A stretch of DNA of 64,000 nt from Pseudomonas rhizosphaerae (GTDB lineage: Bacteria > Pseudomonadota > Gammaproteobacteria > Pseudomonadales > Pseudomonadaceae), in assembly GCF_000761155.1 (NCBI RefSeq), contig NZ_CP009533.1:248001-312000 (forward strand). The letters are read 5' to 3'. The translations under genes and the position numbers were made by a program. Below the pieces are notes generated by a model. That model did not search any database and was not told where the DNA came from. It was given only the letters and a program-made list of their open reading frames with translations. Every line of letters begins with the position of its first letter. Positions within the stretch are counted from its first letter, which is position 1. Below are positions 53,801-62,594 of the stretch, piece by piece.

Positions 53801-55366
53801 CTAAGGCACCAGGCAGGTGGCGTATGCGTTGCCTGCCTGGGCACTGAGCAGCTCGTTCGCTTCGACGCGGTTCCGGCCTCGGTTCTTGGCACGGTAAAGA
53901 AGACGATCCGCTTCTTTCAGAGCGGCGGTGTAGGCGTCTTGTTTCGGTGCATTGATCGCCACCACGCCCAAGCTGACCGTGACATTGCCCAGCGGACTGG
54001 CTGAATGCTCTATGCAGGCATCGACGATCGACTGCCTGACCTTTTCGGCCACGCTCAGCGCGCCGGCGAAATCCGTTTCAGGCAACAGAATCACAAACTC
54101 TTCACCGCCATAGCGCGCCGCAAGGTCACCCGCCCGATGCACGGCGGCGCCGATCAGGCCGGCCACCTGCACAAGGCAGTCATCGCCGCGGATGTGCCCG
54201 TATTGATCGTTGTACTGCTTGAACCAATCGATGTCCAACAAGATGATCGCAAGCGTCGAGCGATTCCGACTGGCGCGTCCCCATTCCTGTTGCACGGCAA
54301 CGTCGAAGCGGCGTCGATTCGCCAGCTGCGTCAAGCTGTCAGTCTGCGCGATGATCTCCAGCGCATCCTGGGCGTTCTGCAATTCGCTTTCCGCCGTGAT
54401 CAGTTGCTGGATCTGCTTGTACAACAAGACGCTCAACGCTATCAGCGCCAGGCAGATCAAGCCAAGCAAGCCCATCGACCGATAGGCGTAGGCCCACCAC
54501 GGAGCGAGTACGTGTTGGGAAGACACACCGGCCGCTGCGACCATCGGCAGGCCGGCGACGCGTCGGTAGGCATAGATTCTTTCCACCGAATCCACCACGG
54601 ACCTGGTCACGGCGATGCCGCTGTCGCTCTGGGGAAGATAGTGCGAAAAGATCTCGCCTTTGGCGAGATTGGTGGTCATCAACGCGGTCAAGCTGGGACG
54701 TCGAGCCAGCAGATCACCGTTGTTCAGCGCCAGGAAAATTACGCCTTGATCGTCCACGTCCATGCGTTCGAAGAAGGTTTGAAAGTAGGCGACAGGCACA
54801 GTGGCCAACACCACGCCGGCAAACGTGCCGTCGGCATTGTTGATGCGTCGGCTGATGGGGATGACCATATCCCCTGTGAGGCGACTTTTCACGATGGAGC
54901 CGATATGAATGGATCGGTCGACGTTGTCACGGTGATAGATGAAATAAGGGCGGTCGCCGTTGTTGTTCGTCCGCAGCCCTTGCGAGAAGGAATTGACTAC
55001 CCAGTTGCCTTGGGCGTCGAAGATGAACAGCCCCTGGATCGCTTCGACATTCGTCACGTTTTGCGCCATCAGCGTTGCCAACCGAATGCGCTCGCCTGCG
55101 GCAAGACCGTCGTGCTCAACGCGCTCCACAAGGTCACGCAAGGTATTGTCAGCCTGCCGGACGGTATCCTGCGCTTGCTGTTCCGCGGCACGAACGATGT
55201 TGGACACCGCCACTTTCGCAGTCGCCAGCCGTTCCTCCCTGGACAAGCTCATCTGCCAGGCAGTAGCCAGAATCAACGATAGGCAGACCAGCGCAATAAA
55301 GCCCATCAAGGCTTTTTTCAGCGACGACGGCGAAAGTCTGGCTGGAGTGAAGTGACGTAGTTTCAT
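53801..55366 (-). CDS. Membrane diguanylate cyclase with dCache sensor
   Basis: The 521-residue protein (start MKLRHFTPARLS; no strong ribosome-binding site) has TM1 near 17-36, a periplasmic dCache domain (about 45-285), TM2 near 290-312 (MGLLGLICLALIALSVLLY) and a C-terminal GGDEF domain with ARYGGEEFVILLPE. An I-site RAGD precedes GGEEF by five residues, so product inhibition is expected. It makes cyclic di-GMP. It converges on the chemoreceptor gene and follows the GGDEF-EAL gene by 64 bp on the same strand. Confidence 0.94.
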   Translation of the reverse strand: MKLRHFTPARLSPSSLKKALMGFIALVCLSLILATAWQMSLSREERLATAKVAVSNIVRAAEQQAQDTVRQADNTLRDLVERVEHDGLAAGERIRLATLMAQNVTNVEAIQGLFIFDAQGNWVVNSFSQGLRTNNNGDRPYFIYHRDNVDRSIHIGSIVKSRLTGDMVIPISRRINNADGTFAGVVLATVPVAYFQTFFERMDVDDQGVIFLALNNGDLLARRPSLTALMTTNLAKGEIFSHYLPQSDSGIAVTRSVVDSVERIYAYRRVAGLPMVAAAGVSSQHVLAPWWAYAYRSMGLLGLICLALIALSVLLYKQIQQLITAESELQNAQDALEIIAQTDSLTQLANRRRFDVAVQQEWGRASRNRSTLAIILLDIDWFKQYNDQYGHIRGDDCLVQVAGLIGAAVHRAGDLAARYGGEEFVILLPETDFAGALSVAEKVRQSIVDACIEHSASPLGNVTVSLGVVAINAPKQDAYTAALKEADRLLYRAKNRGRNRVEANELLSAQAGNAYATCLVP

Positions 55367-55430
55367 AAAGGCGTCATAGGATTGTCGGCAAAACTGACAG
55401 ATGCAGTTTTCGTACCGACCCCCGGGCCAG

Positions 55431-57062
55431 TTACGCTCTAAGTGGGCCGTTAACGCCATCCGCCCCTATCAATGCCGTGATCTGTGCAACGGGTAGGGCT
55501 CGTCCGAACAGATAGCCTTGGGCGAAATCGCACTCATGTTTGACCAGCCACTCAGCCAGTTGCTCATGCTCCACGCCTTCGGCTGTGATCTGCATGTGCA
55601 AACTTTTGCCCAGGGCCAGGACGGCTTTGACCATGTCGCTTTGGTTCTTCAGGGAAGTGTCGAAGAAGGACCTGTCGATCTTGATTTTATCGATGGCCAA
55701 CTGAGTAAGGTGGTACAGGCCCGAATAACCCGTGCCGAAATCGTCCAGAGCGACACCTACACCCATCTCACGCAGCCGTTCGAGGTTCATTCGGGCACTT
55801 CCCATATTGGCGATGAGTGCATTCTCGGTGACTTCGACTTCCAGCTGAGCCAACGGAAAGTTGCCTTGCCGCGTGATCTGCTCCAGCCATTGCGGAAACT
55901 CGCTGCTTTCGATCATCGAGGACGTCACGTTAATCGCCAAGGTCAAGGCGCGTGGCCATTCTCGCGCTTGCGCAAAGGCTTGAATCAAAAGGCTCTCGGT
56001 CAATGGTTTGATCAAACCGAGCTCTTCGGTCAGCGGTATGAAATCCTGCGGCATGATGATGCCGCGTTCAGGGTGTATCCACCGAGCCAGGAGTTCGAAC
56101 CCCGCCAGGCGTTGATCGGGCAGGCTGACAATGGGCTGGTAGAATGGCTGGATCTGTTGCTTCTCTATGGCTTGGCGCAGCTCTTGCTCGAATCGCATCT
56201 GCTCGCGTTGCGCTTCTTCGAAGCTGGCTTCATAGAAGTGGAACACAGCGCGGCCGCTTTTCTTTCCTCGGTACATCGCTCCGTCGGCTCTCTGCAGCAA
56301 CGTCTCGGCGGCCGTACCGTCCTGCGGTGAAACAGCGATACCCAACGTCGCGCCCAAGGCCAAGCCTGGCAGCTCGGTGATTCCACTAGCGATCTTGGCA
56401 AGAATATTTTCTGCCAGCGTCGCCAGCTCGTGGCGGGAAAAATTACCCGTCACCGCCAGGGCGAATTCATCCCCTCCCAATCGTGCTACAGCTGCGTGCC
56501 AGCCACTGGTGACTTCACGCAGGCAATCGGCGACTGCACAGATGGCACTGTCACCCGCAGCATGACCATAGGTGTCATTGATGACTTTGAACCTGTCCAG
56601 GTCTATGAGAAACACTGCCGTTTCCTTGCCAGGCTGCTCCAGCCGTCCCGCGAGTTGCTCGTGAAAGACGCGACGGTTCAGGAGGCCCGAAAGCGGGTCG
56701 TGGCGAGCCAGCGAATCACTGTAGGCCTGGGCCTGCACCAGGTTGTTGTAGCTCAAGTGCAGGCGGGCAATCAGGCGCTTGAGGAGAACGAAGGGCATGA
56801 CCATCGCGAACACGGCAAACCCGGTTGAAGTCAGAACGAAGCGCCAGCGCTCGCTGGTTTCGAAATCCCCGTCGTAGGGCAGGTTGAGGACCCACATGAC
56901 AGTGGCTTCAAGCTTGAACTCCCATGCCACTGCCAGGAAGAAAATGGACAGCAGGTAGAAAGCGAGCAGGGCGTAGAGGTTGCTCCGCTCAAGATGCGGC
57001 GTGGGGATGACTGACATGGGTGCGCTCGTAGGGCAGGGTGGCCATGTGAGGTTATCGGTCAT
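55431..57062 (-). CDS. GGDEF-EAL bifunctional cyclic di-GMP protein
   Basis: The 543-residue protein (start uncertain; 57017 is an alternative) has two N-terminal helices (about 28-48 and 78-95), then a GGDEF domain with RLGGDEFALAV and an EAL domain. The EAL motif reads ELL (GFELLARW), keeping the metal-binding Glu; DDFGTGYSGL, TENALI, KIDRSF and AEGVEHEQ are intact. Both synthesis and breakdown are possible, with phosphodiesterase residues well preserved. It probably acts with the next gene, a cyclase. Confidence 0.93.
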   Translation of the reverse strand: MTDNLTWPPCPTSAPMSVIPTPHLERSNLYALLAFYLLSIFFLAVAWEFKLEATVMWVLNLPYDGDFETSERWRFVLTSTGFAVFAMVMPFVLLKRLIARLHLSYNNLVQAQAYSDSLARHDPLSGLLNRRVFHEQLAGRLEQPGKETAVFLIDLDRFKVINDTYGHAAGDSAICAVADCLREVTSGWHAAVARLGGDEFALAVTGNFSRHELATLAENILAKIASGITELPGLALGATLGIAVSPQDGTAAETLLQRADGAMYRGKKSGRAVFHFYEASFEEAQREQMRFEQELRQAIEKQQIQPFYQPIVSLPDQRLAGFELLARWIHPERGIIMPQDFIPLTEELGLIKPLTESLLIQAFAQAREWPRALTLAINVTSSMIESSEFPQWLEQITRQGNFPLAQLEVEVTENALIANMGSARMNLERLREMGVGVALDDFGTGYSGLYHLTQLAIDKIKIDRSFFDTSLKNQSDMVKAVLALGKSLHMQITAEGVEHEQLAEWLVKHECDFAQGYLFGRALPVAQITALIGADGVNGPLRA

Positions 57063-57247
57063 TCAAAGCAAGTCTTGACCCGATTTCGACCGATCTGTTG
57101 CCGGGCTGCACTCACAGCTCATCTGGCAACACACCTTGGTTTGCGGCATGCACATACCTACGGGCTTGAAAGACGAACGTTGTAAAAGCCTCTTCTTGCG
57201 GAAACCTCATGTAATAAACGTTAAGGCGCAGACGTCTCTTCCCGCTC

Positions 57248-57263
57248 ATTGTTGTACAACAAT
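57248..57263. promoter_or_regulatory. Perfect 16-bp palindrome over the -35 of the KaiC operon
   Basis: ATTGTTGTACAACAAT is a perfect palindrome in the region between the divergent GGDEF-EAL gene and the KaiC-like operon. It contains the TTGTAC -35 hexamer (57252-57257) of the rightward promoter. A repressor or quorum-type regulator could bind it. Confidence 0.65.
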
Positions 57264-57280
57264 AGGCAGATTCGTATACA
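57252..57280 (+). promoter_or_regulatory. Sigma70 promoter of the KaiC-like operon
   Basis: TTGTAC (57252-57257), a 17-bp spacer and TATACA (57275-57280) predict a start near 57287 and a leader of about 80 nt. In the leader AATTCTG (57307) and CAGAATT (57354) can pair around the only purine-rich element, and no ribosome-binding site sits just before the ATG. The rest of 57063-57247 shows no gene I would support. Confidence 0.6.
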
Positions 57281-57367
57281 TGAAAGTGTAGCCTGTATAA
57301 GAACTTAATTCTGCCGGGGAGCTTTGAAAGGTGTACCCTCAGTTCACATTTATCAGAATTTACCCTC

Positions 57368-57802
57368 ATGTCACCTGAAAGCGGAGCGAGCCAAAAAATC
57401 GCAGCAGCCCTGGCGTATCGGGTAGGTAGCCTCGTTGACCGCTCTCAAGTCGCTAGTGCGATTATCTCCATGTTCGAAGATATAAATGCCGCCCTTACGC
57501 CCATCATCGGACCCAAAGGCGTTGCTGCCTTATATCGGCGAAGTCTGTTTCTTTGCATGTCAACACATCCGATATATGCAGATAGATATAAAGGGCTCGC
57601 GGTAGCCATGAATTTGACTGAATTTCGCTCCATTTTAAGCGAGCAGGAAAAAACCGATGCAGTCTGTTTTAGCGAGCAATTGCTGAAAACATTCTATGAG
57701 CTCCTCGCCACCCTGATCGGACGATCACTCGCTGCACGATTGCTACTGGACGTGTGGGGAAACTTTCTTAGCGGCTCAGTTTCGCAGGACACACCACAAT
57801 GA
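57368..57802 (+). CDS. Unknown 144-aa helical protein, first gene of the KaiC operon
   Basis: The protein is mostly helical, with no signal peptide, and contains HPIYADRYKGLAVAMNL, then LLKTFYELLATLIGRSLAARLL and the tail WGNFLSGSVSQDTPQ. I do not recognise a family. There is no clear Shine-Dalgarno before the ATG and no better start upstream. Its TGA overlaps the KaiC-like start (ATGA), so the two are translated together, suggesting a partner or regulator of the ATPase. Codon use is less GC-rich in the first half than in the neighbours. Confidence 0.75.
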   Translation: MSPESGASQKIAAALAYRVGSLVDRSQVASAIISMFEDINAALTPIIGPKGVAALYRRSLFLCMSTHPIYADRYKGLAVAMNLTEFRSILSEQEKTDAVCFSEQLLKTFYELLATLIGRSLAARLLLDVWGNFLSGSVSQDTPQ

Positions 57803-59280
57803 GTACCAAAGTAACCATCAACCGCCTGAAGACCGGCGTGCCAGGCTTTGATGAAATCCTCGGAGGGGGGCTGCCCGAGTTTTCGTTCAACTTGATCGCG
57901 GGTCCACCCGGATGCGGGAAAACCACACTTGCCCATCAAATGATGTTTGCCTTGGCAACGCCTGAACGTCCGGCCATTTTCTTCACGGTGCTGGGTGAGC
58001 CACCGCTCAAAATGTTGCGCTATCAGCAACAGTTCGACTTCTTTGACGAAAGCGCCGTCAATACTTCGATTCGCTACGTGAACCTTGCAGACGATACGCT
58101 GGCCGGGGATCTGGACGAAGTGCTTCGGCGCATTGTCAGCGAAGTGGAAACCCATGCGCCCGCGTTGGTGTTCGTGGACTCGTTCCGATCCGTGGTGTTG
58201 GCCAGCGAAACTGAATGCAACCCCAACAATAACTTGCCGCAGTTCGTGCAACAGCTGGGCATGTTGATGACCACCTGGCAGGCAACGACATTCCTTCTGG
58301 GCGAGTACTTCAACGAGCTCGACAGCAACCCCATCTTTACCGTTGCAGACGGATTGATCTGGCTTCGACAAAGCGTGCAGCGCAACTCGATGGTGCGCAA
58401 GATGGAAATCATGAAGATGCGCGGGCAACCGACGCTGCCGGGGTTGCATACCTTCCGGATCGCGGAAAGCGGCGTCACTGTATTTCCGCCTGCGTCCGTG
58501 GGCACTCAGCAAAGTGATGAGCTGTTTCACGGTGCGCCCTCGCAACGGTTGAGCATGGGCGTGACCCACTTGGACGACATGCTCGGGGGAGGGCTCCCGC
58601 AGGGATATTCGCTGTTGATTGCAGGGCCTTCGGGCTCAGGAAAGAGTCTGCTGGCCGCCGCGTTTCTCGAGGAAGGCGCGCGGTGTGGCGAGAAGGGCGT
58701 GATAGCCGTTTTCGAACAAAGGCCAAACCACTTGCGCAGCCTGGAGCTGACCCGATTGATCAAAAACGATCAGGTGGGTGTGGTCGACAGGCGTGTGCCG
58801 GATCTGTCCATCGACGAAATCGTGCAGCAGTTGTTCAGCGAGATCCAGAGACTGGGCGCGACCCGCGTCGTGATCGACTCGTTGTCAGGTTTCGAGCTGG
58901 CGGTTGCACCCGCGTTTCGCGAGGATTTTCGGGAGTCCTTGTCCCGCATGGTGAGTGCTCTCACCGGAACGGGAGTGACCGTGCTCATGACGTCCGAGCT
59001 GGAAGACCGTTACAACGATCTGCGCTTCAGCCCTTACGGAACGGCGTTTCTAACCGATGCGATCATTGTGCAACGTTATATAGAAGTCGACAGTCGCCTG
59101 CAGCGCATCATGGCGGTCGTCAAAGTACGGGCAAGCGCGCATTCCGATGAGCTACGGATGTATCGCATCGATGATAACGGCGTGCAAATTGGCGGCAGGG
59201 TTCAAGGTCAGGAGGGACTGCTCGGTGGTCGACCGACTCGGCGTTATTCGATGTCACATTCTGGAGAAGATATCTCATGA
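57799..59280 (+). CDS. KaiC-like double-domain RecA-superfamily ATPase
   Basis: The 493-residue protein carries two KaiC-type ATPase domains. The first has Walker A GPPGCGKTT at about 35-43 and Walker B ALVFVDSFRS; the second has Walker A GPSGSGKS at about 276-283 and Walker B RVVIDSLSG. Each opens with the typical GVPGFDEILGGGLPE or GVTHLDDMLGGGLPQ. The Glu pair after strand 2 of each KaiC domain is reduced to one Glu here (VLGEPPL; AVFEQRP). There is no kaiB or kaiA beside it, so it is not a cyanobacterial-type clock by gene content. It lies between the 144-aa protein and a histidine kinase gene and probably signals to the kinase. Confidence 0.92.
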   Translation: MSTKVTINRLKTGVPGFDEILGGGLPEFSFNLIAGPPGCGKTTLAHQMMFALATPERPAIFFTVLGEPPLKMLRYQQQFDFFDESAVNTSIRYVNLADDTLAGDLDEVLRRIVSEVETHAPALVFVDSFRSVVLASETECNPNNNLPQFVQQLGMLMTTWQATTFLLGEYFNELDSNPIFTVADGLIWLRQSVQRNSMVRKMEIMKMRGQPTLPGLHTFRIAESGVTVFPPASVGTQQSDELFHGAPSQRLSMGVTHLDDMLGGGLPQGYSLLIAGPSGSGKSLLAAAFLEEGARCGEKGVIAVFEQRPNHLRSLELTRLIKNDQVGVVDRRVPDLSIDEIVQQLFSEIQRLGATRVVIDSLSGFELAVAPAFREDFRESLSRMVSALTGTGVTVLMTSELEDRYNDLRFSPYGTAFLTDAIIVQRYIEVDSRLQRIMAVVKVRASAHSDELRMYRIDDNGVQIGGRVQGQEGLLGGRPTRRYSMSHSGEDIS

Positions 59281-59289
59281 GAGGCCTTG

Positions 59290-60315
59290 GTGAATGACTC
59301 GAATGACACAAACGAGCGTGACGACAAGGAGGATGCTCACAGGCTGACTCCGACGGACCACAAGAAAAAGCGCCATGTTCTTGCCCACTTGGCCGCCCTG
59401 CAACGAGAGCTGCTCGAGGCTGAAACGGCGGCGGGCAATGGCGTACACATACAGCTGCTGGTCGAAGCCAATCAACGGCTCATACGCGCCGCTTTGGTTA
59501 CGCCCGATCTTCCGTCGGAATTCGAACCGATGACGCTCCGAAGCTTGCATCAAGAGATGCAGGAAGCCAACGAGCACCTGGTACTCGCTGCGCTGCGCGC
59601 GCAAAAGCTCCAGGCCGATGCCGAAAAATCACTGTCGCAACAGAAGAATGCGCTGGCTTCGGTGGTCCACGAAATGCGCAACCCGCTGACGCCGATCACT
59701 TTGCTCGCCCAGCGCATGCGCCAGACACCCAGTGACAATGTTCCGCAGATGTGTACGCTGATTGAAGGTCAGGTCAAGCATCTTTCGCGGATGATTGAAG
59801 ACTTGCTGGACATCTCCCGTGTGAGTACGGGCAAGTTGAGTTTGAATCGCACACCAGTAGATATCGTTTCCGTCCTCGCGGATGCAGTAGCCAATTGCGC
59901 ATCTTTGGTGTCGTCGAAAAAGTTGGAATTTGAAGTTTCGATTCCGCCGGGTGTGGTCATGGTAAGCGGTGACAAGGTTCGCATCATGCAGATCTTCACC
60001 AATATCATAACCAACGCCGCGAAATACACGCCCCGAAACGGCACGGTGACACTGAGCTGCATCGAGGCTGAAAAGTATCTCAGCGTCATTATCTCGGACA
60101 ATGGCATCGGCATACCTGCAAGCATACTTCCGCGCATATTCGATCCTTACGTCCAGGACGTCGAAGCCATCGGTTTCGATGGCTCGGGCTTGGGCATCGG
60201 GCTCACCGTAGTCAGGGAACTGGTGGATGCACACGGCGCCAGTATCGTTGCGCACAGTGAGGGTGCCGGGTTGGGTAGCCAGTTCACGGTTACATTCCCC
60301 GTAATCGAGGGATAA
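59290..60315 (+). CDS. Soluble histidine kinase of the KaiC operon
   Basis: With a GTG start (GAGAGG 5 nt upstream; TTG at 59287 is an alternative) the product has 341 residues. The N-terminal 115 residues are charged and helical with coiled-coil character (HLAALQRELLEAETAAGNG; LHQEMQEANEHLVL). HisKA follows with SVVHEMRNPLTPIT (His127), then HATPase with NIITNAAKYT, SDNGIGIPA and GSGLGIGLTVV. No membrane helix, PAS or KaiB-like domain is present, unlike SasA. It begins 9 bp after the KaiC-like gene; a response regulator is not encoded here. Confidence 0.92.
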   Translation: MNDSNDTNERDDKEDAHRLTPTDHKKKRHVLAHLAALQRELLEAETAAGNGVHIQLLVEANQRLIRAALVTPDLPSEFEPMTLRSLHQEMQEANEHLVLAALRAQKLQADAEKSLSQQKNALASVVHEMRNPLTPITLLAQRMRQTPSDNVPQMCTLIEGQVKHLSRMIEDLLDISRVSTGKLSLNRTPVDIVSVLADAVANCASLVSSKKLEFEVSIPPGVVMVSGDKVRIMQIFTNIITNAAKYTPRNGTVTLSCIEAEKYLSVIISDNGIGIPASILPRIFDPYVQDVEAIGFDGSGLGIGLTVVRELVDAHGASIVAHSEGAGLGSQFTVTFPVIEG

Positions 60316-60383
60316 AGCCTTTCAGCTATCTGCGTGTGCACCAGGCGCAGCCAGCTTGTTATGTCCGAGATCGGATCAGCCCA

Positions 60384-62594
<2,211 letters not shown>

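Follow-up and report, generated by a model that had tools for sequence, protein, structure and literature searches.

A conserved operon of Pseudomonas rhizosphaerae links a KaiC-family ATPase lacking the clock phosphosites to a small helical protein and an exchangeable third gene

A 64,000-nucleotide stretch of the Pseudomonas rhizosphaerae genome (contig NZ_CP009533.1, positions 248,001 to 312,000; hereafter the window) carries on its forward strand a three-gene operon encoding a 144-residue helical protein (p144), a two-domain KaiC-family ATPase and a soluble histidine kinase (HK). We found that the three genes form a real conserved unit, and that the third gene is a swappable output, presumably serving either phosphorelay or cyclic di-GMP (c-di-GMP) signalling. 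We put at about even the chances that the operon encodes a KaiC signalling core which works without KaiB and without phosphosites and whose exchangeable output is of one or the other kind.

Layout and conservation of the three-gene unit

57368..57802, + strand: p144, 144 aa, all-helical, unnamed family; open reading frame (ORF) with an ATG start, model pLDDT 84.6
57799..59280, + strand: two-domain KaiC-family ATPase, 493 aa; PF06745 at 9.3e-66 in two stretches
59290..60315, + strand: soluble HK, 341 aa; HisKA at 4.7e-13, HATPase_c at 1.1e-24

The KaiC ORF overlaps that of p144 by 4 bases (ATGA), and the HK start, a GTG at 59290 with TTG 59287 as an alternative, lies 9 bp past the KaiC stop; the ORF calls thus bear out the tight linkage that an earlier note on this DNA had described. 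That note let the operon begin at 57248, which is 120 bp 5' of p144; from 57248 up to p144 there is upstream DNA only.

The same note had proposed a search for co-occurrence of the genes across Pseudomonas, and they were found together, not apart. Both p144 and KaiC were searched in 348 genomes of the genus, with up to four KaiC candidates scored per genome, so that the KaiC counts apply among the matches listed. p144 was present in 64 genomes, in up to four copies. All 77 close KaiC matches listed (at least 72% identity, fragments of broken copies counted) lay no more than 1.5 kb from p144, and the next KaiC matches listed were 33% identical or less. A close KaiC was likewise listed near 78 of the 79 p144 matches; in the one remaining case (G190) the KaiC alongside carries an internal deletion. 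In a scan of named genomes, from which the best 80 of 87 confirmed stretches were examined as loci, KaiC-family sequence directly followed p144 in 80/80 and an HK match stood behind KaiC in 75/80 (not in L096, L137, L148, L150 and L152). These loci span Pseudomonas, Stutzerimonas, Caballeronia, Lysobacter, Luteimonas, Aquabacterium and a betaproteobacterial metagenome-assembled genome. The fetched sets, which overlap, comprised 125 loci with p144 and KaiC, reducing to 110 distinct pairs (L164, found by its KaiC only, was left out), and the p144-KaiC overlap measured exactly 4 bases in 99 of them.

Wider searches for p144 gave matches in 4 of 398 phylum genomes, a count that takes in the window's own genome and one congener, and in 9 of 369 class genomes, again counting its own. 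The two weakest class matches (L161, L162) showed no KaiC and are probably due to chance; of the two new phylum matches, L187 shows a p144-like ORF with an HK-like ORF 1.5 kb further on, and L188 nothing clear.

Genes beyond the three were not conserved. In a comparison of 41 wide stretches no other gene cluster occurred in more than six, apart from one (c3) that is common to most loci and is made up of frames lying antisense to KaiC and HK. Three plasmid records of Caballeronia, from two strains (L184, L185, L186), also carry p144; two of them show KaiC and a 'diguanylate cyclase' behind p144, and the third has no annotated gene at the KaiC position. Given its patchy distribution, its copy numbers of up to four and these plasmid copies, the unit travels. 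Insertion sequence genes lie near p144 on two of the three plasmid records. The patchiness (64/348 genomes), multiple copies, plasmid copies and changing neighbours would also suit a selfish or regulatory cassette, in which the genes co-travel and their products do not form one device. We consider this improbable, because the 4-base overlap is kept in 99/110 distinct loci and because, as described below, one N-terminal module is retained before differing outputs.

The KaiC ATPase and its partner p144

57901..57927, + strand: Walker A of domain CI, GPPGCGKTT, residues 35-43; core G, K and T invariant in 102/102
58624..58650, + strand: Walker A of domain CII, GPSGSGKSL, residues 276-284; core G and K invariant in 102/102, residue 283 being S or T
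59044..59049, + strand: A416-F417, at the clock phosphosite positions S431/T432; Ala/Phe in 102/102

By sequence, the nearest solved structures of the window KaiC are those of clock KaiCs. Residue conservation was scored over 102 full-length KaiCs, the window's included. The two PF06745 stretches and the P-loops kept in all 102 agree with the double-domain KaiC with both Walker A motifs that had been read from the window. Also invariant are the two Walker B aspartates and, in each domain, one acidic residue (E67, E306); from these ATP-site residues we infer ATPase activity. The phosphosite positions were placed by alignment to solved KaiC chains, with S431 and T432 being the numbering of the clock protein. 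The sites are also named in PMC3164672. The phosphorylatable residues expected there of a clock autokinase are absent from the window KaiC. Because the two positions are Ala/Phe, a canonical KaiC phosphorylation cycle is unlikely in the p144-linked subfamily, judging from its sequences; an ATP-driven conformational cycle is possible.

KaiB was sought as PF07689 in the entire 4.685-Mb genome, a single contig, and gave 0 matches at E 0.1 with a positive Synechococcus elongatus control; no search for KaiA was made. The HK model, of low confidence in its N terminus, shows only helices before residue 188. Both results accord with the earlier statement that neither KaiB nor a SasA-type KaiB-like domain is present. 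The device free of KaiA and KaiB that had been envisaged fits the lack of a KaiB match and the loss of the phosphosites.

A two-domain KaiC with both ATP sites conserved could in principle keep time, as a clock or hourglass that is driven by its ATPase activity and that the HK reads, and an hourglass is proposed in passages of PMC3164672 for KaiC-HK pairs with phosphorylatable sites. Set against this are the Ala/Phe pair in 102/102, the lack of a KaiB match in the genome, scores far under the NCBIfam clock-KaiC cut-offs (TIGR02655, 142.1 bits versus 546.25; PRK09302.1, 225.8 versus 408) and a Pseudomonas KaiC study which, as cited in PMC11832031, gave no evidence for circadian function. A timer thus seems highly unlikely, and the p144-linked unit does not have the sequence features of a clock.

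Several degraded copies of the operon were seen. Shortened KaiCs with internal deletions occur in L051/L085, L057, L058 and L150, those of L057 and L058 being a 189-aa open frame that retains both protein ends; L127 gave a good match to one KaiC domain only; and otherwise intact operons carry a frame-broken KaiC (L032, L101) or p144 (L066, L149).

p144 had been described as a helical unknown, and so it proved. It has no Pfam or NCBIfam match, even at E 1, and its AlphaFold2 model is all-helical (pLDDT 84.6, pTM 0.79; helices 3-19, 25-66, 68-77, 83-91, 95-117 and 119-130). Fold comparison with libraries, with a KaiA-like four-helix domain in question, yielded no clear match of any kind among the families that they list. 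Two similar conserved stretches are present, around LTPIIGxxGVAALYRRSL and LLxTLIGxSLxxRLL. In the first alignment relatives were 32-66% identical to p144, the KaiCs of the same loci mostly about 80-90%. Mean distances over 75 HK-type operons were 0.29 for p144, 0.10 for KaiC, 0.32 for the N-terminal part of HK and 0.31 for its core. The p144 and KaiC distance matrices correlate with r 0.90; as proof of a partnership this comparison was dropped, because little signal remains beyond linkage.

Together with the patchy distribution, a small fast-evolving partner could point to anti-phage defence, and the KaiC has weak PADLOC matches (mad8, 8.5e-12). These cover only the surroundings of the P-loop; the HK match covers only the ATPase part, and p144 has none. 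Moreover, 50,697 phage records contained 0 KaiC matches at E 1e-20, and Pfam recognised no nuclease or toxin domain in the unit. We attach very little weight to a defence role.

One distant member of the p144 family is a fusion protein. In a gammaproteobacterial genome (L163) a p144 domain stands N-terminal of a GGDEF domain in one protein of 364 aa, beside which no KaiC was seen. The first p144 profile, built without this sequence, matches it at 1.3e-11, and BLASTP gives 2e-8 as a single comparison. No second fusion was present in the 3 genomes of the same family that were examined.

The exchangeable third gene and its N-terminal module

59290..59499, + strand: helical N module of HK, homologous to the pre-GGDEF part of the long form (profile of 13 pre-GGDEF N termini)
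59500..59526, + strand: seam, residues 71-79, where relatives carry GGDEF (alignment; helix break in a low-confidence model)
about 59641-59829, + strand: HisKA of HK (Pfam)
about 59968-60303, + strand: HATPase_c of HK (Pfam)

With HisKA, HATPase_c and the sequence HEMRNP, the window HK is a histidine kinase by its domains, for which autophosphorylation and phosphotransfer are predicted. Orthologues among 23 picked relatives are 43-53% identical. Ahead of HisKA there is no Pfam match and no sensory domain was found.

Across the 110 distinct loci the third gene encodes HK in 87, a GGDEF-HK protein in 11, GGDEF in 3 (L068, L142, L168) and GGDEF-EAL in one (L165); none was recognised in 8. These classes were assigned by motif, and Pfam confirmed 11 of the proteins, the window's included. 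Two members of the HK class are longer (L166, L167), L166 being a hybrid with a receiver (Pfam), and L142 has a kinase match 0.9 kb after KaiC. Three of the loci without a recognised third gene end at a contig border (L096, L113, L150), L113 with a partial HK match.

In an alignment of 85 HK, 11 GGDEF-HK and 3 GGDEF proteins, the GGDEF domain is cleanly inserted, with a copy of an EANxxLVLxALxAQ-type helix motif on either side. A profile of the 13 pre-GGDEF N termini matched 78 of the 78 HK N termini that could be excised (median 63.5 bits); the control sets, 780 shuffled and 78 reversed N termini, gave no match at E 1e-3. The helices of the HK model stop at residue 69 and restart at 80, that is at the GGDEF seam, in a region where the model has low confidence, as it has at the N terminus. 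Since its N terminus is homologous to the pre-GGDEF part and GGDEF sits at a helix break, the window kinase is probably a GGDEF-less derivative. The protein of L145 (Aquabacterium), which has no GGDEF domain, carries a few residues like a GGDEF start. On a KaiC tree of 34 sequences the GGDEF forms fall mostly in outer branches, and the Pseudomonas HK-only operons lie within a group of 16 (SH-aLRT 90, not starred) that also holds the GGDEF-HK form L060 and four members without a recognised third gene; the HK-only L145 and L164 fall outside it. The minimum number of changes on this tree is five. Loss of GGDEF on the line to the window is most likely, being the better reading without being proven, and the direction of evolution is deduced rather than seen. 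By domain content, the GGDEF of the kinase relatives ties the p144-KaiC family to c-di-GMP.

Exchange of the catalytic part behind a constant N module also bears on the direction of signalling. p144 could be an effector or adaptor controlled by KaiC, with HK as the sensor feeding KaiC, and KaiC plus p144 as the output. p144 evolves fast, as effectors often do (HK is variable too), and, with no sensory domain found in HK, a sensor is needed somewhere. The position of p144 N-terminal of GGDEF in the fusion is the usual place of an input domain, and it is the catalytic output of the third gene that varies while the N module stays; both speak against this. We regard the effector arrangement as unlikely, if the strongest of the competing explanations.

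As to the target of the kinase, our best guess is a single-domain receiver encoded behind a second type of KaiC (KaiC2). The window's genome holds two more two-domain KaiCs, at 1.65 and 2.27 Mb, and the KaiC2-receiver pair is the one at about 1.65 Mb (L179:6218-8032). KaiC2 followed by the receiver was found near the p144 operon, within about 8 kb per side at most, in 6 of the 80 named loci (L100, L108, L110, L116, L124, L153), in four of them upstream on the other strand and in two downstream. By chance (16 kb in about 6 Mb) well under one such locus in 80 would be expected, an estimate only, as the species are related. In G249 and G321 a KaiC match of about 30% identity lies about 300-350 bp from p144; in L058 a KaiC2-type receiver (85%) stands directly behind GGDEF-HK, and in L057 the receiver is split over two matches. 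A PAS-GGDEF gene is also found in L108, L116 and L153, and a PAS protein (Pfam) in L108 and L116, with further matches in L043, L057 and L058; the PAS protein of L108 and L116 presumably resembles a short LOV photoreceptor. The KaiC at about 2.27 Mb (L178:4418-7932) has a stop codon overlapping the start of a same-strand 677-aa gene whose product resembles a multi-domain sensor protein.

Based on these data we propose the following scheme, in which the protein contacts, the direction of the signal and the receiver are deduced. The KaiC ring would bind and hydrolyse ATP in both domains without the cyanobacterial Ser/Thr phosphorylation cycle. p144, translationally coupled to KaiC, would bind the ring and tune its nucleotide state or conformation upon some input. 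With its helical N module the third protein would read the state of KaiC, and a coiled coil would relay it to the catalytic portion. For the window HK that portion is HisKA/HATPase_c, which might then phosphorylate a separate receiver, the one at 1.65 Mb being the candidate; in relatives the output would be a diguanylate cyclase (GGDEF), either by itself or stacked with the kinase. The window HK would descend from a GGDEF-HK protein that lost its GGDEF. More tentatively, and with clearly less than even confidence, p144 may be a new family of sensor domains whose role is to drive a KaiC ring or, in fusion proteins, to act directly on a diguanylate cyclase. p144-KaiC would then be a phosphorylation-free ATP-state switch whose output is swapped among c-di-GMP synthesis, c-di-GMP turnover and phosphorelay via a helical docking module, and the window kinase would have started out as a diguanylate cyclase-kinase and lost the cyclase.

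A number of observations weigh against this scheme. Five of the 110 loci (L038, L042, L047, L064, L148) lack a recognised third gene away from contig ends. The N module of the window is the weakest of the 78 (24.7 bits, E 1.1e-6), and the HK model is poor there. Two of the GGDEF forms (L142, L168) read SGDEF, so that their cyclase may be inactive. The root of the KaiC tree is one very long branch. Co-evolution of p144 and KaiC adds little beyond linkage (partial r 0.18, reached in 11 of 500 permutations), and the p144-GGDEF fusion is known from one genome. Finally, KaiC2 was found in none of the 40 stretches L034-L073, and the link to the receiver comes from few loci.

Relation to known systems and surroundings of the operon

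Operons of KaiC and HK without KaiB are already known, having been described in 2011 (PMC3164672). Passages of that paper distinguish three genomic contexts of KaiC. In the first, kaiB is present; in the second, kaiB is absent and a specific HK comes after KaiC; the third is a mixed, 'black' group whose phosphosites are poor (AF is among the types given) and which has receivers, HKs or GGDEF/EAL proteins nearby. The window has KaiC followed by HK and no KaiB, as in the second context, and lacks the phosphorylatable KaiC that belongs to it; as far as these passages go, it fits the third group better. In the Ramlibacter pair Rta_04330/Rta_04340 treated there, a KaiC gene is followed by an HK gene without KaiB, as in the window. 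The Ramlibacter KaiC has phosphorylatable sites, in contrast to the A/F of the window, and the comparison made there for the N domain of its HK was with receiver, SasA and KaiB domains. The N module of the window HK, by contrast, is predicted to be helical and is common to GGDEF proteins. The passages on KaiC-HK make no mention of p144. The window resembles cyanobacterial KaiABC-SasA in having a two-domain KaiC and, as the presumed reader, a soluble kinase; it differs in the A/F phosphosites, in the extra partner p144 and in that the search gave neither KaiB nor a SasA-type domain. BcsE, as presented in passages of PMC7439463, acts in c-di-GMP signalling; its RecA-like domain, for which KaiC was the model, is coupled to a module derived from GGDEF. 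It is one chain with a degenerate ATP site, and the likeness is an analogy only. Within the literature searched (titles, abstract beginnings and passages, a scope that does not extend to Terrettaz 2023 and Makarova 2017) we found no p144 and no KaiC operon with GGDEF-HK, and both p144 and the modular output seem to be new.

The function of KaiCs other than those of the cyanobacterial clock has long been an open question, for which the p144-KaiC family is a compact case: an ATPase without clock phosphosites, one dedicated partner and directly assayable outputs. The GGDEF-HK and GGDEF-only relatives make control of an enzyme by a KaiC ring through the N module testable by a c-di-GMP read-out. 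Terrettaz 2023 is reported to link stress resistance and biofilm in environmental Pseudomonas to KaiC-like proteins; this is the same genus, and the biofilm phenotype fits a link to c-di-GMP. If the read-out showed control by KaiC, it would connect KaiCs to that phenotype.

The window itself has c-di-GMP genes beside the operon, a GGDEF-EAL gene (55431-57062) and a dCache-GGDEF gene (53801-55459), both reading away from it. The earlier note saw in them a possible output, which the comparison did not support. The GGDEF-EAL protein has one close relative (77%, G023) in 56 other genomes, with all other matches at 47% or less, and the G023 copy lies far from the pobA-like gene of its genome (we take the neighbouring gene of the window to be pobA). 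As neighbours vary by locus and this adjacent GGDEF-EAL gene is rare, these genes were ruled out as part of the unit. The link to c-di-GMP is supported by the GGDEF in or instead of the kinase in sister operons and by the p144-GGDEF fusion, not by the window's neighbours.

Upstream of the operon lies one further feature:

57330..57340, + strand: upstream element GGTGTACCCTC, 38 nt 5' of the p144 start

Of the 87 HK-type loci, 79 have GGTGTA 38-42 nt 5' of p144, where letter shuffles give 1.94; it also occurs in 3 of 13 GGDEF-type and 3 of 8 other loci. Part of this positional conservation is common descent; the element is possibly part of a promoter or operator. A scan of 57050-60420 for sigma-70-type promoters found 0. 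A regulon of GGTGTACCMTC was rejected, with the exact pattern occurring once in the genome and the reversed control five times.

In two loci (L064, L067) a copy of the operon stands between a hybrid kinase gene of the PAS-HisKA-HATPase-receiver-LuxR type (Pfam, L064) and a very long frame (2755 and 2155 aa, respectively, to the end of the stretch), which we take to be a relative of cyclic glucan synthases.

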